A stretch of DNA of 64,000 nucleotides from Planctomycetota bacterium (lineage in GTDB: Bacteria; Planctomycetota; UBA1135; UBA2386). Made by a program: the position numbers and the translations under genes. The notes under the pieces are model-generated. The model searched no databases. It was not told where the DNA came from and worked only from the letters and a program-made list of their open reading frames with translations. The stretch is taken from contig JADLFX010000074.1 in the NCBI GenBank assembly GCA_020849665.1, positions 1 through 64,000 on the forward strand. Direction: 5' to 3'. This document shows positions 15,159 through 47,414 of the stretch, one piece after another (the stretch's first letter is position 1; every line of letters begins with the position of its first letter).

Positions 15159-17297
15159 ATGGTTCCGACCCTTCTCGCAGCCGCGCTCTTCGCCACCTTC
15201 CTCGCCCCGCAAGACCCCGCACCCGCCCAGGCCGACGCGCCGCAGCGCTATGCGGTCCGCTTCCGCGAACGGAGCTTCGACCTCTCCAGCTTCGCCGCGG
15301 CCGTTGCCGCCCGGCAGAGCGGACCCCAGGCCGAGGCGGTCCTGGCCGACCTCGAGGCGCGGATGCGCGCCGACCAGGCGCCGTTCGTCGACTTCGTCGA
15401 GCGGCTGGGCGGCCGGGTGGTCGCGCAGTGGTGGCTGGTGAACGGTTGCGCGATCGAGGTGCGGCAGAGCCAGCTCGCCGCCGTCCGCGCGCACCCGCGC
15501 GTCGCCGACCTGCAGGCCGACCACGTCCGGCGTCCGGGCCGCTTCATCAAGACGTCGACCAACGCGAACAACCACGGTACCGACTCCGTGCAGGCGCTGG
15601 GCATCCGTGGCGAGGGCGCGGTGCTCGCGGTGGTGGACTCGGGCGCGGACGTGAACATGGCCGGCACCGGCCGGCCGCACGCCACGTTCTTCGTGGATGG
15701 CAATCCCGGCAACACCACGGGCGGCGGGATCGCCGGGTCGCGCCTGCTGGCCAATCAGCAGATCGGCCTCATGTCGGCCGACGATCTCATCGCGCATGGC
15801 ACGGCAGTGGCCAGCGTGGCGGCTGGCGCGCGCTGGAACCAGGGGGCCCTCGCCGACGACGGCCACGCCCCGCGCGCCAGGATCGTGAGCTACTCGGTGG
15901 CGGATGACGCGCGCGGCGGCACCGGCTACCTGACCCTGACCAGCGCCTGGCAGCGGGTGGCGGCCGACCGCCTCCGCTACGGCATCTCCGTGGCCGTGTG
16001 CAGCTACGAGGGCTACGTCGGCCTGCTCTGGTCCGACCAGGACGCCATCGACTCGCTGGCGCGCAACGCGGACGTGCTGGTCGTGGGCATGGGAGGCAAC
16101 GAGGGAGCAACGGGCCAGCCGGCGCTGTTCTCGTACAGCGCCACCAACATGCTGGCGGTGGGCGCCACCGAGGCCGACACCCGCCGGGTAGCAGGCTTCT
16201 CGACGCGCGGCCCGCTCCTCGGCGAGACGCGGTTCTACCCCGACCTCGTGGCCAACGGCGTGACCATCCGCTCGGCGCTCGCCGACGGCGAGCTCACGGA
16301 GAAGCTCGCCAGCGGCACGTCCTATTCCGCGCCCCAGGTGGCCGGGGCCGCGTTGCTCTATCGCAGCCTGAAGCCACTGGCCAGCGCCGAGGAGACCAAG
16401 GCGGCGATCCTCGTCACCACCGAGGACATCGCGGGCAAGAACGTGGGCCTCACCACGGACCCGCGCAACGCCCACGGCACGGGCTACCTGCGCGTCGACC
16501 GGCTGGTGGCGTTCGCCGCGGGGCAGGCGGGCGCGGCGCTGGTGCGGGACACCGTGTCGAACGCCCAGCCGACCCGGACCTACCGGCATGCCGTCCAGGC
16601 GGGCCGCGGCTATGCGTTCGCGCTCACCTGGTTCCGGAACCGGATGCCCGGCTATCCGGTGACGCCCGACTGGTCCAACCTGGACCTGGAAGTCCGCGAC
16701 GGCACCACGCTGCTGGCGAGCGCGGCACAAGCGCGCGACCTCACCGAGTTCGTCCGCTTCCTGGCGCCGCGCACCACGGTCCTGGACGTCACCGTGCGGC
16801 TGAAGTCCCTGGAGACCAGCGTCACCCAGCAGTCCTTCGCGCTGGCGGCCAGCGAGTCCTCACCGGTGTTCGTGGCGCCGTCGACCGTGGTGATCGGCAT
16901 GGGCTGCACCAACCCGATGCCCACGCTCAACGTCTACGACGGCCGCCCGATCGCCGGCCAGAGCTACACCCTCAAGCTCAACGCGTTCGCGCTGCAGGTG
17001 CCGGTGGCCCTCGGCGTGGGCGTGTCCAACACCCAGTGGGGCGGCATCCGGCTGCCGCTGGACCTGAGCGCGTTCGGCGCGCCGGGATGCCTCGTACACA
17101 CGTCCTTCGAGCTGCTCCTGCAGGGACGTACCGGGACCGGTTCGATGGAGGCGACGTTCACCGTCGGCCTCCCCGCGATGCCCTCCCTGGTCGGGGAGAC
17201 GATCTACCACCAGGCCATCGTCCTGAACGGCTTCGCGAATCCGCTCGGCGTCGCGCTCAGCCCGGCGCTGCGCGTGACCGTGGGCGGCGAACGCTGA
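15159..17297 (+). CDS. Secreted subtilisin-like S8 serine protease with C-terminal accessory domain
   Basis: Signal peptide MVPTLLAAALFATFLAPQ; triad motifs VLAVVDSGADV (D), LIAHGTAVASVAAG (H), LASGTSYSAPQVAGAALL (S). Confidence 0.92.
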   Translation: MVPTLLAAALFATFLAPQDPAPAQADAPQRYAVRFRERSFDLSSFAAAVAARQSGPQAEAVLADLEARMRADQAPFVDFVERLGGRVVAQWWLVNGCAIEVRQSQLAAVRAHPRVADLQADHVRRPGRFIKTSTNANNHGTDSVQALGIRGEGAVLAVVDSGADVNMAGTGRPHATFFVDGNPGNTTGGGIAGSRLLANQQIGLMSADDLIAHGTAVASVAAGARWNQGALADDGHAPRARIVSYSVADDARGGTGYLTLTSAWQRVAADRLRYGISVAVCSYEGYVGLLWSDQDAIDSLARNADVLVVGMGGNEGATGQPALFSYSATNMLAVGATEADTRRVAGFSTRGPLLGETRFYPDLVANGVTIRSALADGELTEKLASGTSYSAPQVAGAALLYRSLKPLASAEETKAAILVTTEDIAGKNVGLTTDPRNAHGTGYLRVDRLVAFAAGQAGAALVRDTVSNAQPTRTYRHAVQAGRGYAFALTWFRNRMPGYPVTPDWSNLDLEVRDGTTLLASAAQARDLTEFVRFLAPRTTVLDVTVRLKSLETSVTQQSFALAASESSPVFVAPSTVVIGMGCTNPMPTLNVYDGRPIAGQSYTLKLNAFALQVPVALGVGVSNTQWGGIRLPLDLSAFGAPGCLVHTSFELLLQGRTGTGSMEATFTVGLPAMPSLVGETIYHQAIVLNGFANPLGVALSPALRVTVGGER

Positions 17298-30846: not shown

Positions 30847-32451
<1,605 letters not shown>

Positions 32452-32454
32452 GGT

Positions 32455-32772
32455 TCAGCCCTCCACCCGCGCGAGGATCTCGTTCTCGCGGATGATCTTG
32501 TAGTCCTCGCCGTCGACCTGGACGTCGCTGCCGGCGTACTTGCCGAACAGCACCGTGTCGCCCTTCTTGACGTCGGGCTTGACGCGGTTGCCGTCCTCGA
32601 GCCGGCGGCCCTCGCCCACGGCGATCACGGTGCCGCGCCCGGGCTTCTCGCGCGCGGTGTCGGGGAGCAGGATTCCGCCCGAGCTGATCTCCTCGGCGTC
32701 GAGGACGCGCACGACGATCCGGTCGTCGAGGGGGCGGATGTTCACATTGGTCTTGGTCTTGGTGTCCTTCAT
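32455..32772 (-). CDS. groES: Co-chaperonin GroES
   Basis: NIRPLDDRIVVRVLDAEEISSGGILLPDTAREKPGRGTVIAVGEG...KKGDTVLFGKYAGSDVQVDGEDYKIIRENEILARVEG. Confidence 0.97.
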   Translation of the reverse strand: MKDTKTKTNVNIRPLDDRIVVRVLDAEEISSGGILLPDTAREKPGRGTVIAVGEGRRLEDGNRVKPDVKKGDTVLFGKYAGSDVQVDGEDYKIIRENEILARVEG

Positions 32773-32810
32773 GGCATCGATACCTCTCTGGAATGCGGGG
32801 GTTGGGGCGG

Positions 32811-34448
<1,638 letters not shown>

Positions 34449-38575: not shown

Positions 38576-39175
38576 TCAGCGGTCCTTCCGGTCCGGGGGC
38601 GTCTCCGGCGTGCTGCGCAGGTTGGTGTTGGGCTGCACGGCCGAGTGCTCGGTGGCGGGGTCCCAGTAGGTCTGTCCGAGCGCGGTCACCTGCTTGTAGC
38701 GCGTCGTGGTCGCCGAGCCGTCGGCGTGGACCCACCACTCGAGTCCGTCGGCGTCGACCACCTTGGCGATCACCGGGGGGACGCGTCCCAGGTCCGGGTC
38801 GCGCGTGGCGGGAGGTGCCGCGTTGAGGCCGTTCAGGTACGGCAGCCAGGTGCCATCGAAGAAGCCGATGCCCTTGCCCGGCTCGACCTTGGGCAGCCGC
38901 GACACGGGAATGCGGGTGCCCGGCGGCCAGGGGCTCTTCACGTGGAGGGGTTTCTCGCTCTTGCGATCGGTGGGGATGGGCAGCGGCGGCACCGGCTCCA
39001 CCTGCGGCTCCCAGCGGAACGCGGGTGCCGGGGCGCGCTCGGCCGGCGGCTGGCCGCCGGTGGGCGGAGTCGCACCCGCGGGCACTTCCGCGCCGGATTC
39101 GCGCAGGGCGAGGTACGCCCCGCCGAGGCCGGCGGCGGCGGCCAGCAGGATCCAGAGGAGCGCGCGCGGGTGCAT
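38576..39175 (-). CDS. Conserved (within-window paralogue) single-TM protein, WWVHADGSATT family, module A
   Basis: MHPRALLWILLAAAAGLGGAYLAL; PLHVKSPWPPGTRIPVSRLPKV...DGTWLPYLNGL...VVDADGLEWWVHADGSATTTRYKQV...TYWDPATEH; aligns by eye with the 45655-46251 product. Confidence 0.75.
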   Translation of the reverse strand: MHPRALLWILLAAAAGLGGAYLALRESGAEVPAGATPPTGGQPPAERAPAPAFRWEPQVEPVPPLPIPTDRKSEKPLHVKSPWPPGTRIPVSRLPKVEPGKGIGFFDGTWLPYLNGLNAAPPATRDPDLGRVPPVIAKVVDADGLEWWVHADGSATTTRYKQVTALGQTYWDPATEHSAVQPNTNLRSTPETPPDRKDR

Positions 39176-39188
39176 GCCGGGAGCGGGG

Positions 39189-40364
39189 CTACTCGACCAG
39201 GATCGATGAGGCGGTGGTGAGGGTCACGCTGGTGAACCCCGCGTTGAACACCAGGCCCTGGCACTTCAGGATCTCGCCGCGCGCCGCGAAACCCAGCGGC
39301 GGGACCGGGATCTGCGCGTTGGCGCCCGAGAAGGTGCCGCCCGCGCTGAGCGGCATCGTGATCGACGCGAGCACGTCCAGGGCCGGGAAGGTGGGATCGA
39401 GGAGCAGGTTGCCGAACGGCGTGGGAAGGCTGCCCGCGAACCAGCTGCGGCCCATGTTGATGAACACGACCGCGATGCCGGTGCTGCCCCAGTTGTTGCC
39501 GGCGCGCACGTCGAAGAAGAGGTTCCCGTTGCTGGCGCGTGACCAGTCGGAGATGCAGGCGGTGTTGCCGCGGTAGGTCTCGTTGGCGAGGCGCGGCACC
39601 TCGTAGGCGTTGGCGTGGTCGCCCGTGGCGGTGAGCACCAGCTCATTCACCAGCAGGCCGATCTTGGGCCGGTAGTTCCAGTCGCCGCCCAAGGTGATCG
39701 TGCGCGGATTGCTGCCGACCGCCCAGCCGTGGTACGGCCAGCCGCCCGGCCCTCGGCCGCCGCGCCAGTCGGACGCCACGGTCTGTCCGCCGTTGGGGTC
39801 GTCGCGCCATTCGCCGCCGCGGTACTCCACGAAGAGCAGCAGCTCGAGATCGGGCAGCGGCACGGGAGTGGTGAGGTTGAAGCTGTGCTCCACGATCGCC
39901 CACGTGCTGATCACCAGCGGCTGGTCGGCCACGTTGAGCAGGTCCTGCCCGGTCGTGGCGTGGGTGCGGTGGTAGCTGTTCTGGCCGGGCTGCGTGACGC
40001 CGATCCCGGTGCGGAACTGGTAGTGGTTCGGCGCCGGGAACGACTGCACGGCCGAGCCGGTGAACACGGCCTGGGTCATCCCGACCACCGTGAGGTAGTT
40101 GGGCGGGTTGGCCCCGGCCTGGGCGCGCAGCTTGGGCGTGTAGCTCCACGCGCGCGTCCCCGCCGCCACGCCAGGCGCCGCGGTGTAGCCGGGCGGGAGG
40201 GTCGAGGCTGCGGGATAGGGGTTGTTCGTGATCGGGTGCTTGGTGCTGGAGATGACCCGGAAGGTGTTGTTCACCGAGAGTTCGGGAACCGTGGGGTTGC
40301 CTTGCGCGGTCAGGGCCGACGCGAACGCGAGCCCGGCGAGCAGGGACGAGGAAACGCGCAGCAT
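39189..40364 (-). CDS. Secreted ~390-aa paralogue 1 (unrecognised family), module A
   Basis: MLRVSSSLLAGLAFASALTAQ signal; SFPAPNHYQFRTGI, FVEYRGGEWRDDPNGGQT, GSNPRT, FFDVRAGNNWGSTGIAVVFIN, LPTPFGNLLLDPTFP. Confidence 0.8.
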   Translation of the reverse strand: MLRVSSSLLAGLAFASALTAQGNPTVPELSVNNTFRVISSTKHPITNNPYPAASTLPPGYTAAPGVAAGTRAWSYTPKLRAQAGANPPNYLTVVGMTQAVFTGSAVQSFPAPNHYQFRTGIGVTQPGQNSYHRTHATTGQDLLNVADQPLVISTWAIVEHSFNLTTPVPLPDLELLLFVEYRGGEWRDDPNGGQTVASDWRGGRGPGGWPYHGWAVGSNPRTITLGGDWNYRPKIGLLVNELVLTATGDHANAYEVPRLANETYRGNTACISDWSRASNGNLFFDVRAGNNWGSTGIAVVFINMGRSWFAGSLPTPFGNLLLDPTFPALDVLASITMPLSAGGTFSGANAQIPVPPLGFAARGEILKCQGLVFNAGFTSVTLTTASSILVE

Positions 40365-40579: not shown

Positions 40580-41752
40580 TCAGTACACCAGCACCGACGA
40601 GCTCGTGGTCAGGGCAATGCTGGTGAAGCCCGCGTTGAACACCACCGCCTGCGCCTTCAGGATCTCTCCGCGCGCGGCGACACCGAGGGCGGGCACGGAG
40701 ATCTGCGCGTTGGCGCCGCTGTACGTGCCGCCTGCGGAGAGCGGCAGCGTGTTGGCCACGAAGAGGTCCAGGCCCGGGAAGGTCGGGTCGAGCAGGAAGT
40801 TGCCGAACGGCGTCCACAGGCTGCCCGGAAACCAGAGCCGGCCCATGTTGATGAACACCACCGCCGTGCCGGTGCTGCCCCAGTTGTTGCCGGCGCGCAC
40901 GTCGAAGAACAGGTTGCCGTTGGTGGCCGTGGCCCAGTCGGCATAGCACGCGGTGTTGCCGCGGTAGTTCTCGTTGGCGAGGCGCGGCGTGTAGTAGGCG
41001 TTGGCGTGGTCGCCAGTCAGGGTGAACACCGGCTCGTTCACCAGCAGCCCGATCTTGGGCCGGAAGTTCTGGTCCCCGCTCAGCAACACGGTGCGCGGGT
41101 TGTTGCCCGTCGTGTAGCCGTGGTAGACGAGGTTGCCCGGGCCGCGCCCGCCGTACCAGTCGGAGGCTATGGTCTGGCCGCCCATCGTGTCGTCCTGCCA
41201 CTCCCCGCCGCGGTACTCGACGAAGAGCACCAGCTCCAGGTCGGGCAGCGCCACCGGCGTGGTCAGGTTGAACGTGTGCTCCAGGATCGCCCAGGTGCTG
41301 ATCACCAGCGGCTGATCGGCCACGTTCAGGAGGTCCGGTCCGGTGGTGGCGTGCGTACGGTGGTACGGTCCCTGCCCGGTCTGCGAGGCCGCGATGCCGG
41401 TCCGGAACTGGTAGTGGTTCGGCGCCGGGAACGACTGCACCGCCGGGCCAGTGAACACCGCCTGCGTCATGCCGACGACCGTCAGGTAGTTGGCGCCGTA
41501 GGCGCCGGCCTGCGAGCGCAGCTTCGGCGTGTAGCTCCACGCGCGCGTGCCCGCGGCGACGCCGGGTGCGGCGGCATACCCGGGGGGCGTGGTCGGCGAG
41601 TACGGGTACGGGTTGTTGGTGATGGGGTGCTTGGCGGTCGACACCACGCGGAAGAAGTTGTTCACCGAGAGTTCGGGAACGGTGGGACCCTGGGCCGTCA
41701 ACGCGACCGTGAGAGCGAGTCCTGGGAGCAGGGAGGCAGCGACACGCAGCAT
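40580..41752 (-). CDS. Secreted ~390-aa paralogue 2 (unrecognised family)
   Basis: MLRVAASLLPGLALTVALTAQ signal; SFPAPNHYQFRTGIAASQTGQGPYHRTHATTGPDLLNVADQPLVISTWAILEHTFNLTTPVALPDLELVLFVEYRGGEW; near-identical layout to paralogue 1. Confidence 0.8.
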   Translation of the reverse strand: MLRVAASLLPGLALTVALTAQGPTVPELSVNNFFRVVSTAKHPITNNPYPYSPTTPPGYAAAPGVAAGTRAWSYTPKLRSQAGAYGANYLTVVGMTQAVFTGPAVQSFPAPNHYQFRTGIAASQTGQGPYHRTHATTGPDLLNVADQPLVISTWAILEHTFNLTTPVALPDLELVLFVEYRGGEWQDDTMGGQTIASDWYGGRGPGNLVYHGYTTGNNPRTVLLSGDQNFRPKIGLLVNEPVFTLTGDHANAYYTPRLANENYRGNTACYADWATATNGNLFFDVRAGNNWGSTGTAVVFINMGRLWFPGSLWTPFGNFLLDPTFPGLDLFVANTLPLSAGGTYSGANAQISVPALGVAARGEILKAQAVVFNAGFTSIALTTSSSVLVY

Positions 41753-41947: not shown

Positions 41948-44047
41948 TCAGGGGCGCTCGCGCACCTTCAGGTCCTTCAGCGTGATCGTCTCGGGTCCCC
42001 AGTCGCGCCCGAAGATCCGTTCGAAGCGGAGCATCGAGGGGAGCAGGTGGTTGCCCACCTTGGTCAGGGTGACCTTGACGGTCTCGGTCCAGCGTTCCTG
42101 GCTCCGGCTCCCCGCGGTTCCGAGCGTCGATTCGATGCGCGTCACCGCCATGCGCCCGTCGATCCGTTCATAGGTGAAGCGCGTCGTTGCGTCCCTGGTG
42201 CTCCAGCCGCGCACCAGTCCCCCCTCGCCCTGCACCTCGAGCACCGGGCCGTTCTCGATGCGGAACGTCCCCGTCGCGTCCGCGGCGTGGATCGTTGCTC
42301 CTGCGAAGAACGACTCGAAGGTGGCGCGGTCGTTGAAATCGCGCGAGTGCCACATCAGCAGCCGGTCGCGGAACGCGGCGCCCAGGGCCATCTCGACCTC
42401 GGGGGGCAGCCTGCCTTCGCATTCGAGGTGCAGGGCCTGCAGATGCCGTCCGATCCCGGTCATCGTCACGGTGCCCTTCACCCTCTTCTGGCGGAGCCAG
42501 ATCAGGTCGGAACCCGGATGGGTCACCTCGAACCCCGCCGCGATCTCGATCGGCGCCTCCGGCAGGCGGTACGCGGTGTCCCAGAGCGCGCGCAGGGCAG
42601 CGGCGCCCTCGCCGGTGGGGGCGCGCACGGCCACCGCGCCCTGGCCGTCGAAGCGCAGATCGGAGAGGGCGAGCTCGCTGGCCGAGAAGAGCTTGTCGCC
42701 GAACGCCGTCGTGCTGGTGCTGCCTGCGGGTACCTGGAGCCCATCCTGCTCGCGGTACCGGAACGTGGTCCGCTGCGAGCTGGAACGAAGTTGGGTGACC
42801 AGGTAGCCGCGGCCGGTCTCCTGCACCTGCCACGTGGTGCGTGGGCCGTCGCCGGTCCCTTCGCCGACGATCCTGTCCTCCGCCACCTGGTAGTCGACAT
42901 GGAGCCCGATGTGCGTCCCGGCGCCGGTCGTGGACATCGGCGCCGCGACGGACGGATCCAGCCATCCGGGACCCTGCACCTCGACGCGATCCGCGGCCAC
43001 CTCGCCGAGCCGGTTGCGTGCCGCGAAGGTCGCGAAGTCCGGCCGGCGCACCTGTTCGAATGCCGAGGCGATCGCCGATGCGGCGTTCGCACCCTGGCCC
43101 GAATCGATCTCGACCCGGACCGGCCCCTTCGCCGGGAGGGTGAAGCGCCCGGTCACGGCGTGGTCCTCGTACTCGCTGCTCGAGTTCAGCTTCTGGCGGC
43201 GTTCTCGGAAGGCGAACCTGCCGCTCACCGCGGTGGCCGCGTCGGGCCAGCGGTACCAGCGCTCGTAGGCGGGACGGAGCCGCCTGGCGCCTGCCTCGGG
43301 ATCCGCCCTGCCGACCAGGCTCCAGTCGGCGAGTTGGAATGCCGTTGCCTTCAGGGCCGAGGCCGGTGCCGCTTCGGCGTCGAGGTAGGCGCGCGGGCCG
43401 GCTCGCCCGGCCAGCACCCAGGGCAGGGTCGCTCCCGCGGGCACGCGCACCCCCATCAGCTCGGTCAGATCCGCGGGCTGGGCCAGGGTGACCAGCAGGA
43501 GCACGTCCAGGTCCCGGTCGAACGGGTTGGTGAGCTCGATCTGGGTGACCGGGAAGGTCCCGACCATGGAGGTGCGCTGCACCGTCGTGGGGCGGGAGAT
43601 CTTCAATCCCGGCCGCGCCACCTCGACCGGTCCGTGCCACGCCGCGCTGAGCACGCGCACGGCGTACTGCGCCGGCGTGCCGTGCAGCGCAGTGCCGAGC
43701 GTGTAGACCTGCTTGCCGCCGGGGGGCGCCCCGCGTCCGTAGCGGCGCACGAGCGGCAGCTGCACGCGGCGGAAGGTCTCCGCGCGCGGAGCTGCGCCGC
43801 CCCGCTCGCGCAGCTCGATCCCGAACTCCAGCGGCTCCGCGGTGGCCGTGCCACGATTGTGGACCTCCACGAGCAGGAGCTGCGAGAACTTGTCGACCGC
43901 GCGCACGCCGGCCACGCGGCACTCCAGTCGGGCGACGTCGCCGGTCAGGAACTCGGGCTCGCGCGGCTGCTCCTGGGCAGATGCCGCCCCGGCGCCGGCG
44001 AGCCAGAGGGAGGAGAAAAGGGCGCGCGCGAGTCGGATCCGGGTCAT
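41948..44047 (-). CDS. Large secreted protein of unknown function
   Basis: Signal MTRIRLARALFSSLWLAGAGAASAQ; 700-aa intact ORF, no recognised domain. Confidence 0.7.
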   Translation of the reverse strand: MTRIRLARALFSSLWLAGAGAASAQEQPREPEFLTGDVARLECRVAGVRAVDKFSQLLLVEVHNRGTATAEPLEFGIELRERGGAAPRAETFRRVQLPLVRRYGRGAPPGGKQVYTLGTALHGTPAQYAVRVLSAAWHGPVEVARPGLKISRPTTVQRTSMVGTFPVTQIELTNPFDRDLDVLLLVTLAQPADLTELMGVRVPAGATLPWVLAGRAGPRAYLDAEAAPASALKATAFQLADWSLVGRADPEAGARRLRPAYERWYRWPDAATAVSGRFAFRERRQKLNSSSEYEDHAVTGRFTLPAKGPVRVEIDSGQGANAASAIASAFEQVRRPDFATFAARNRLGEVAADRVEVQGPGWLDPSVAAPMSTTGAGTHIGLHVDYQVAEDRIVGEGTGDGPRTTWQVQETGRGYLVTQLRSSSQRTTFRYREQDGLQVPAGSTSTTAFGDKLFSASELALSDLRFDGQGAVAVRAPTGEGAAALRALWDTAYRLPEAPIEIAAGFEVTHPGSDLIWLRQKRVKGTVTMTGIGRHLQALHLECEGRLPPEVEMALGAAFRDRLLMWHSRDFNDRATFESFFAGATIHAADATGTFRIENGPVLEVQGEGGLVRGWSTRDATTRFTYERIDGRMAVTRIESTLGTAGSRSQERWTETVKVTLTKVGNHLLPSMLRFERIFGRDWGPETITLKDLKVRERP

Positions 44048-44307: not shown

Positions 44308-45474
44308 TCACTGGATCAGGATCGTCGTGGCAGACGTCAGCGCCATGTTGGCGAACCCGGCGTTGAACACCAGCGCCTGCGCCTTCACGAACTGGCCTCG
44401 GGCCGTGGGGCCGAGGGTGGGGATGGCGACGCGGTTGGCCTCGCCCTGGTTGTAGACGCCGCCCGCGCTCAGGGTCAGCACGTTGCCGACGAAGAGCGTC
44501 AGGAACGGGTCGGTGGGGTCGAGGAGCAGGCCGCCCCACGGCGTGGGCACCTTCCCCGCGAACCAGTTCACGCTCCCGTTCAGGAACACCACGGCCGAAC
44601 CCGTGCTGCCGTAGGTGTTGCCCGCGCGCACGTCGAACCACAGCGAGCCCTGGGTCGACGTGGCCCAGTCGGCCCAGCAGGCCCCGAGACCGCGGTGGAA
44701 CTCGCTGGCGAGCGGCGGGCTGATGTAGCTGTTGCTGTGGTATCCGGTGGCCGTGAGGATCGGCTCCTGCACGAGGAACCCGAGCTTCGGCCGGAACAGG
44801 CTGCCGCTGCTGAGCCCCACGGTGCGCGGGTTGCTGCCGGTCGTGTAGCCGCAGTACACGAGGCCGCCGGGGCCGTAGCCGCCGTAGTAGTCGCAGGCCA
44901 TGGTCTGTCCGCCCTGCGGGTCGTCCCGGTACTCGCCGCCGCGGTACTCGGCGAAGAGCAGGAGGTCGACGTCGGGGATCGCCACCGGCGTCGCCAGCGT
45001 CGTGCTGATGTCGAACACCGGCCCGTTGGGGATCGCCACCGGCGCGTCCGCGACGACCAGGAGGTCTGCGCCGCTGGGCGCATGCGTCCGGTGGTAGGGA
45101 CCCTGGCCTGGCTGCGACGGGGCGATGCCCATCTTCATCTGGTAGTGGTTCGGCGCCGGGAACGTGGCCACCGCGGCGCCCACGCGCACCGACTGCAGGA
45201 TGCCCGTGACGGTGAAGTAGTTGGCGCCCTGGTGGCCCTGCTGCGCGCGCAGCTTGGGCGTGTGGGTCCACAGGCGCGTGCCGGCCGCGACGCCGGGGGG
45301 CGTGGCCGAGTCGTAGCCCGGCGGCACGGTGGGCGAGTAGGGGTAGTAGTTGCCCGTGCCCGGGTGCTGGAGCGTCGAGCGGACCGTGCGCGTGTTGTTC
45401 ACGACGAGCTCGGCGTCCTGGGCGAAGAGGGAGCTGGCGAGCACGGCGCTCGCGAGGAGCAATGGCATGTGCAT
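44308..45474 (-). CDS. Secreted ~390-aa paralogue 3 (unrecognised family)
   Basis: MHMPLLLASAVLASSLFAQ signal; FPAPNHYQMKMGIAPSQPGQGPYHRTHAPSGADLLVVADAPVAIP, FAEYRGGEYRDDPQGGQT, WFDVRAGNTYGSTGSAVVFLN, VPTPWGGLLLDPTDP. Confidence 0.8.
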   Translation of the reverse strand: MHMPLLLASAVLASSLFAQDAELVVNNTRTVRSTLQHPGTGNYYPYSPTVPPGYDSATPPGVAAGTRLWTHTPKLRAQQGHQGANYFTVTGILQSVRVGAAVATFPAPNHYQMKMGIAPSQPGQGPYHRTHAPSGADLLVVADAPVAIPNGPVFDISTTLATPVAIPDVDLLLFAEYRGGEYRDDPQGGQTMACDYYGGYGPGGLVYCGYTTGSNPRTVGLSSGSLFRPKLGFLVQEPILTATGYHSNSYISPPLASEFHRGLGACWADWATSTQGSLWFDVRAGNTYGSTGSAVVFLNGSVNWFAGKVPTPWGGLLLDPTDPFLTLFVGNVLTLSAGGVYNQGEANRVAIPTLGPTARGQFVKAQALVFNAGFANMALTSATTILIQ

Positions 45475-45654: not shown

Positions 45655-46251
45655 CTACCGCGCGCCGGGTCGGGTGCCCGGCTCCCCGGGCGGGAGGATC
45701 TCCGAGGCGGGTTGCGGCGTGCCGTGGCGCGTGGCGGGGTCCCAGTAGGTGTCGTTGCCGACGCTCACCTGGTGATAGCAGGAGGTCGTGGCCGAGCCGT
45801 CCGCGTGCACCCACCACTCCAGCCCCGCGGCGTCGACGAACTTCTCGACCACCGGCGGCACGGGTCCGCGCGCGGGGTCCCGGTGCAGCTTCGGGGCCCA
45901 GGTCATCCCGTTCAGGAAGGGCAGGAAGGTGCCATCGGGCAGCGGGATCCCGTTGTCGACGCGCGGGAGCGAACGCACGGGGATCCGCGTGCCGGGTGGA
46001 TGGGGGGAGCGCACGTGCAGCGCGCTGGGCGCGCGCGTGCTGGTCAGGAACGCCACGGGCGGCACGGCGACGGCGGGGGCCTCGGCCGTGATCGGCTGCG
46101 TCGCGGGTGCCGGCCGCGTGGCGGCGGGAGGCGGGGGCGCAGGCGCGGGCGGGAGGTCCGCCGCGCGCCCCCACCACAGCGCCGCGCCCCCGGCCGCCGC
46201 CAGCGCGACGCAGCCGAGGAGCACGGCCGGGACCTTGGGTGCCCCGCTCAC
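45655..46251 (-). CDS. Conserved (within-window paralogue) single-TM protein, WWVHADGSATT family, module B (GTG start)
   Basis: SGAPKVPAVLLGCVALAAAGGAALWWG TM; ALHVRSPHPPGTRIPVRSLPRV...DGTFLPFLNGM...FVDAAGLEWWVHADGSATTSCYHQV...TYWDPATRH; 4-bp overlap with 46248. Confidence 0.72.
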   Translation of the reverse strand: MSGAPKVPAVLLGCVALAAAGGAALWWGRAADLPPAPAPPPPAATRPAPATQPITAEAPAVAVPPVAFLTSTRAPSALHVRSPHPPGTRIPVRSLPRVDNGIPLPDGTFLPFLNGMTWAPKLHRDPARGPVPPVVEKFVDAAGLEWWVHADGSATTSCYHQVSVGNDTYWDPATRHGTPQPASEILPPGEPGTRPGAR

Positions 46252-47414
46252 TCCACGAGGATCGCCGCGGCGCCGGTCAGCGTCAGGTTGGTGAAGCCCT
46301 GGTTGAAGACGATGGCCTGCACCTTCAGGACGTTCCCGCGCGCGCTGGCACCGAGCGCCGGGACCGCGATCGCCTGGCTCTCGCCGCTGTAGGTGCCGCC
46401 TGCCGAGAGGGTCAGCGGGATCCCCACGAAGAGGTCGAAGTACGGGTCGACCGGCGAGAGGAAGAGGCTGCCCCACGGCGTGGGCAGCGCGCCCTGGAAC
46501 CAGCCGTTGTTGGCGAACACCACCGCGGTGCCCGTGCTGCCGAACTGGCCGCCGGCGCGCACGTCGAACCAGAGCGAACCCTGGGTCGAGGTGCTGTAGT
46601 CGGCCGCGCACGCCGCGATGCCGCGGTAGTACTCGCCGGTGAGCCGTGGCGTGTAGTAGCGGTTGGCGTGGTAGCCGGTGGCGGTGAGGACGGGTTCCTT
46701 GACGAGGAGCCCCATCTTGGGCCGATAGTCCGGCTCGCCCGAGTAGACCACCGTGCGCGGGTTGCTGCCCGTGGTGTAGCCGCAGTAGGCCAGCGCGCCC
46801 GGGCCCTTGCCGCCCTGGTAGTCGCAGCCCGCGGTCTGCCCGCCCAGCGGGTCGTCCCAGTACTCGCCGCCGCGGTACTCCAGGAAGAAGCACAGCTCCA
46901 CGTCCTGCATCGGCACCGGCGTGGCGAGCGTCGTGCTGATCTCCCAGATCGGCCCGTTGGGGATCACCGTCGGGGCGTCGGCGACGCTGAAGAGATCCGC
47001 GCCGGTCGGCGCGTGCTGGCGCTGGTAGGCGCCGGTGCCGGGCACCGTTGGCGCGATGCCGCACTTGAACTGGTAGTGGTTGGGCGCCGGGAACGAGGCC
47101 ACGGCCGGACCCACGTAGATCGACTGCGTGATGCCCGAGATCGTGAGGAAGTTCGGTCCGAGCTGGCCCGCCTGGTAGCGGAACTTCGGCGTGTAGGTCC
47201 ACAGGCGGGTGCCCGCGGCCACGCCGGGGGGCGTGGCGCTGGCGTAGCCGGGCGGCGTGGTCGGCGAGTACGGGTAGTAGTTGCCCGTGCCGGGGTGCTG
47301 GCCGGTGGAGCGCACGCGGAAGAAGTTGTTGACCGCGAGTTCGGGGTCCTGGGCGGAGAGTGCTGCGGCCAGGCTGGCGAAGGCGACCAGCGCCGCGAGA
47401 GAGGGAGCTTGCAT
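46248..47414 (-). CDS. Secreted ~390-aa paralogue 4 (unrecognised family), module B
   Basis: MQAPSLAALVAFASLAAALSAQ signal; SFPAPNHYQFKCGIAPTVPGTGAYQRQHAPTGADLFSVADAPTVIPNGPIWEISTTLATPVPMQDVELCFFLEYRGGEYWDDPLGGQT, WFDVRAGGQFGSTGTAVVFANN. Confidence 0.8.
   Translation of the reverse strand: MQAPSLAALVAFASLAAALSAQDPELAVNNFFRVRSTGQHPGTGNYYPYSPTTPPGYASATPPGVAAGTRLWTYTPKFRYQAGQLGPNFLTISGITQSIYVGPAVASFPAPNHYQFKCGIAPTVPGTGAYQRQHAPTGADLFSVADAPTVIPNGPIWEISTTLATPVPMQDVELCFFLEYRGGEYWDDPLGGQTAGCDYQGGKGPGALAYCGYTTGSNPRTVVYSGEPDYRPKMGLLVKEPVLTATGYHANRYYTPRLTGEYYRGIAACAADYSTSTQGSLWFDVRAGGQFGSTGTAVVFANNGWFQGALPTPWGSLFLSPVDPYFDLFVGIPLTLSAGGTYSGESQAIAVPALGASARGNVLKVQAIVFNQGFTNLTLTGAAAILVE

Follow-up and report, generated by a model that had tools for sequence, protein, structure and literature searches.

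A conserved pair of genes for a secreted beta protein and its partner, predicted to be membrane-tethered, within a single order of Planctomycetota

The genes for a secreted protein of about 390 amino acids (aa) and for a small partner protein with an N-terminal transmembrane (TM) segment form a real and conserved pair in a group of Planctomycetota, a conclusion strongly supported by their adjacency above chance across related genomes. As neither family is catalogued, the two seem to make up a two-part module of the cell envelope that has not been described before, with a role that we infer. The chances are about even that the partner is tethered to the membrane and serves specifically to bind the exported protein with which it is paired, as an anchor, a chaperone or an export partner.

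In the window (the whole stretch of 64,000 nucleotides that was analysed), the first pair lies on the minus strand. The open reading frame of secreted protein A (39189-40364, ATG start) translates into 391 aa, and is followed after a gap of 13 nt (39176-39188) by the gene of partner A (38576-39175, ATG start), a 199-aa protein with a short N-tail, a single TM segment, a Pro-rich linker and a beta domain. The gene coordinates, the lengths, the 13-nt gap and the motif WWVHADGSATT that had been given in a sequence-only reading of this DNA are all exact. The same reading had pointed out that the two-gene arrangement recurs at 45655-47414, as it does, also on the minus strand: secreted protein B (46248-47414, 388 aa) is 57% identical to A, and partner B (45655-46251, 198 aa, GTG start), 50-52% identical to partner A, has a start that overlaps the end of the secreted B gene by 4 nt (GTGA). 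A third, more diverged pair is found on another contig of the same genome, G000:C31 (secreted 82156-83334, 27% identity; partner 83581-84126, 35% identity).

Three further secreted copies of this genome have no adjoining partner. These are the paralogue A2 (40580-41752, minus strand), 79% identical to A, the paralogue B2 (44308-45474, minus strand), 66% identical to B, and a sixth secreted copy at C31:54904-56049. The NG86 dN/dS of A2 against A is 0.28, and it was used for this comparison alone, the other NG86 values being near saturation. Between B2 and A2 there is a gene for a 699-aa exported protein (41948-44047, minus strand) without any Pfam or NCBIfam match, and elsewhere in the window a GroES gene is flanked by two GroEL genes (30847-34448, minus strand). 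A pair adjoining the PNPase gene has been retained in three genera (G000:C31, G013 and G011), which makes it a candidate for the ancestral locus; if so, the cluster in the window would be a lineage-specific expansion.

How general the pairing is was assessed in the same 61 related genomes, searched with profiles of the partner (profile A2), of the 390-aa family (profile A3) and of a wider secreted set (profile A4). A gene of the secreted superfamily lies at no more than 1.5 kb from 44 of the 68 partner matches, when 0.22 would be expected from a Poisson estimate based on the number of secreted genes and the genome size. Because profile A4 was built from proteins first spotted beside partners, we also made a conservative count, which omits every contig that supplied rows to the secreted profile: 30 of 52 partners, in 20 genomes, are still paired, against 0.16 expected. 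Among those 30 pairs, 22 are on the same strand and 18 have the secreted gene upstream; several genomes show a stop/start overlap or a very short gap between the paired genes. At G019:C72 (L105:1266-4454) and G025:C115, a partner gene has on either side a gene of the secreted superfamily that encodes about 440 aa, all on the same strand.

Regarding the suggestion that the pairing is unlikely to be due to chance, these counts bear it out. The finding named there as speaking against it, namely either family occurring widely without the other, does not hold as stated, although with a qualification. All 32 genomes with a partner (out of 61) hold the secreted superfamily, which occurs without a partner in only 2 genomes. 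On the other hand, the partners are more widespread than the strict 390-aa family, restricted to 4 of the 61 genomes, all from a single GTDB family, and 24 of the 68 partners have no secreted neighbour detected within 1.5 kb. A single-sequence search (3/61 genomes) had suggested that the 390-aa family hardly occurs beyond its own genome, an impression corrected by the profiles and by gene calls around the partners. Within the strict family, 7 of 10 members directly adjoin a partner, and most of the other partners have as neighbour a member of a remoter branch of the superfamily. The unpaired copies and lone partners, together with some pairs on opposite strands, indicate that the coupling of the partner is not obligatory.

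The two proteins of a pair also vary together. The distances between partner domains and those between secreted N-terminal parts correlate with r=0.825 over 41 pairs, and when the pairs were shuffled within genomes, a procedure restricted to genomes with several pairs, the mean r fell to 0.49 (p=0.0002, the floor of the permutation). For cluster II alone, the secreted set whose profile came from neighbours of partners, r is 0.791 versus 0.37 after shuffling. Species history does not account for the subtype match, although joint duplication of the two genes could, and the correlation shows co-inheritance, not contact. We give next to no credence to the idea that the adjacency is incidental, with both families merely common. 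It could draw on the wider occurrence of the partner compared with the strict 390-aa family, but it is refuted by this permutation as well as by the observed adjacencies, both in the full count and with the profile-source contigs excluded.

In a phylum-wide sample of 392 genomes, matches that cover the full partner domain are confined to the same order of Planctomycetota; weak matches outside the order were discarded, as they covered only the TM and Pro-rich part of the profile. The named relatives of the partner are Planctomycetota MAGs, a search of a plasmid collection gave no match, and we found no account of either family in the literature. Six of the orphan partners, all from one family, sit beside NADH dehydrogenase (nuo) genes (G055:C352, G052:C106, G049:C408, G038:C209, G058:C9 and G046:C8, at loci L062, L049, L044, L064, L052 and L048) without a secreted partner, and are flanked on the other side by small sensor-like genes and other conserved genes. 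Two large proteins also contain the partner domain, a DUF7133 dehydrogenase-like protein (L030) and an exported protein of 1196 aa (L101:2091-5681). These PVC-type fusions share the same PDG..LNG..WY.HADGS domain, but carry it inside a large exported protein instead of on a TM-anchored stalk next to a secreted protein.

That the domain also occurs in these two proteins, which are unrelated, would suit a module whose ligand is more general. Under such an explanation, the partner would bind a common envelope component (polysaccharide or peptidoglycan) or remodel the envelope, and would be expressed together with the secreted protein but have no contact with it; both the fusions and the orphans beside nuo genes speak in its favour. 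A common ligand would not predict, however, the within-genome match of subtypes with the secreted N-terminal part, even if linkage could produce such a match, and we regard this explanation as unlikely, though a serious rival.

The anatomy of the partner had been read from the sequence as an N-terminal TM segment, a Pro-rich spacer and a compact C-terminal domain, and AlphaFold2 agrees. The model of partner A, built on 18 relatives, shows a helix at residues 3-26 (39098-39169, minus strand), a low-confidence linker at about 30-80 and a compact beta domain at 81-180 (38636-38935, minus strand) with pLDDT 87-95. The helix coincides with a hydropathy peak (Kyte-Doolittle maximum of 2.03 over 19 residues) preceded by a positive N-tail, MHPRA, and a Pro-rich linker of about 76 aa separates it from the beta domain. 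All 18 aligned partners have a single N-terminal hydrophobic segment, with a tail of 0-12 aa and a linker of 43-79 aa whose Pro fraction reaches 0.31. These segments are predicted to be TM helices, with a cleavable signal peptide as the alternative in members with AXA-like sites. In one homologue (L058:~1294-1749), located beside xanthine-dehydrogenase-like genes, a lipobox-like LAAC replaces the TM segment, which agrees with a membrane-anchoring role of the N-terminus.

Two motifs characterize the beta domain, F/PDGTxLPxLNG and GxxWWVHADGSxTTT, and six residues are invariant across the 18 relatives: D107, G108, N115, G116, D152 and G153, that is, the turn-type pairs D-G, N-G and D-G. No conserved set of Ser, Cys or His residues was found in the domain of these relatives. 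Partners A and B match no Pfam family at E<=1, and searches of both the partner and the secreted families against Pfam, NCBIfam, PADLOC and PDB sequences gave nothing above chance. Structural searches with the partner (Foldseek/VIA) yielded nothing usable, the best values being E 0.13 and Z 2.3, which is no proof of a new fold. Among the roles that had been put forward for the partner, an anchor (or else a chaperone) is the best fit. A receptor is unlikely because the cytoplasmic tail has just 0-12 aa and no signalling domain, and so is a processing enzyme or protease, since the invariant residues are of the turn type and a Ser/Cys/His set is missing.

A TM segment with its N-terminus inside, a long Pro/Ala-rich linker and a small folded C-terminal domain recall proteins of the TonB/TolA type. 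Nevertheless, the partner domain is all-beta, unlike theirs, and matches no Pfam model, those of the TonB_C type included, and the neighbouring gene codes for a secreted protein and not for ExbBD or TolQR; no ExbB or ExbD genes were seen adjoining the pairs of the window.

Secreted protein A consists of a signal peptide (ending in SALTAQ), a family-specific beta N-terminal part and a putatively Ig-like C-terminal domain (39192-39611, minus strand) that, according to profile matches, is common to other exported proteins of the genome. The secreted family has no Pfam or NCBIfam match, and its AlphaFold2 model is all-beta and of low confidence (pLDDT 54). The C-terminal domain of this same low-confidence model (pLDDT 54) resembles Ig/MG-type sandwiches (VIA Z 8.9, rmsd 2.9, 102 residues); homologies to GH2 enzymes and complement proteins suggested by Foldseek were dropped, as they came from the low-confidence model with TM-scores of about 0.2. 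With a profile of the 140 C-terminal residues, 32 matches at E<=0.01 turn up in the genome. Of the 23 checked outside the 390-aa family, most reach to within 0-21 aa of the stop codon, the distance being 44 and 93 aa in two cases. Among the weaker matches, those with E above 1e-4, many depend on this consistent position. The domain is carried by an FG-GAP repeat protein and a BD-FAE esterase-like protein, among others, and a 712-aa protein of the window has the domain near its end (17031-17231, plus strand; a weak match, E 0.003).

A domain common to unrelated exported proteins indicates that the secreted family combines a particular N-terminal part with a reused C-terminal domain, which may act as a sorting signal. 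When the profiles of the 390-aa family and of the wider secreted set were compared (hhalign), the probability was 95.6 over the full length and 87 for the N-terminal part alone. The kinship of the two secreted branches is therefore likely, but moderate, for the N-terminal part, and it is firm for the C-terminal domain. As in the cargo of Type IX secretion, a small domain, here with a putative Ig-like fold, occupies the extreme C-terminus of otherwise unrelated exported proteins. NCBIfam models of T9SS sorting domains, however, match none of A, B, A2, B2 and the C-terminal-domain protein L145, and PF14349 (SprA) is silent in this genome and likewise in all the controls.

These data also bear on another explanation, in which the partner is a dedicated export accessory, similar to a pilot or an inner-membrane coupling protein. 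It would deliver its cargo to an exporter in the outer membrane, and this exporter would recognise the C-terminal domain that the cargo shares with other proteins. The TM segment, the long Pro-rich linker and the periplasmic domain would suit such a task, as would the presence of the extreme C-terminal, putatively Ig-like domain of the cargo on the FG-GAP protein and the esterase. But only some carriers of that domain have a neighbouring partner, and no exporter gene recurs next to the pairs, so we hold this role to be unlikely too, though again a serious rival.

Very unlikely, in our opinion, is that the pair encodes a secreted toxin or enzyme together with a membrane-tethered immunity protein or inhibitor. 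Some features are common to the pair and to effector-immunity bicistrons: the gene of an exported protein comes first, that of a small envelope-anchored partner follows or overlaps it, and the paired subtypes co-diversify. In contrast with those systems, no toxin or catalytic signature was found with Pfam, NCBIfam or PADLOC, unpaired secreted paralogues occur in the same cell, the core motifs of the partner are strongly conserved and some loci are divergently oriented. Under an effector-immunity reading, A2, B2 and the C31:54904 copy could be protected in trans by an unlinked partner.

Returning to a membrane-tethered binder dedicated to its exported protein, the beta domain of the partner would bind the cognate secreted protein, probably through the family-specific N-terminal part of the latter. 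The partner may hold the secreted protein at the envelope as an anchor or, alternatively, may escort it in the periplasm before its display on the surface or its release through the shared C-terminal domain. The flexible linker would let the partner domain reach through the periplasm or the wall. A more ambitious proposal, which we consider rather doubtful, is a lineage-restricted system of export and display, where each of many secreted beta proteins would have its own subtype-matched membrane-stalk partner, the fold of the partner would be new to solved structures and the shared C-terminal domain would be the export signal.

Planctomycetota have unusual envelopes, and many of the proteins that they export belong to no named family. 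A statistically supported gene pair offers a handle on how these bacteria tether or escort such proteins, and the presence of several subtypes per genome provides a built-in, natural swap experiment. Moreover, the recurrent C-terminal domain on unrelated exported proteins is a candidate sorting signal.
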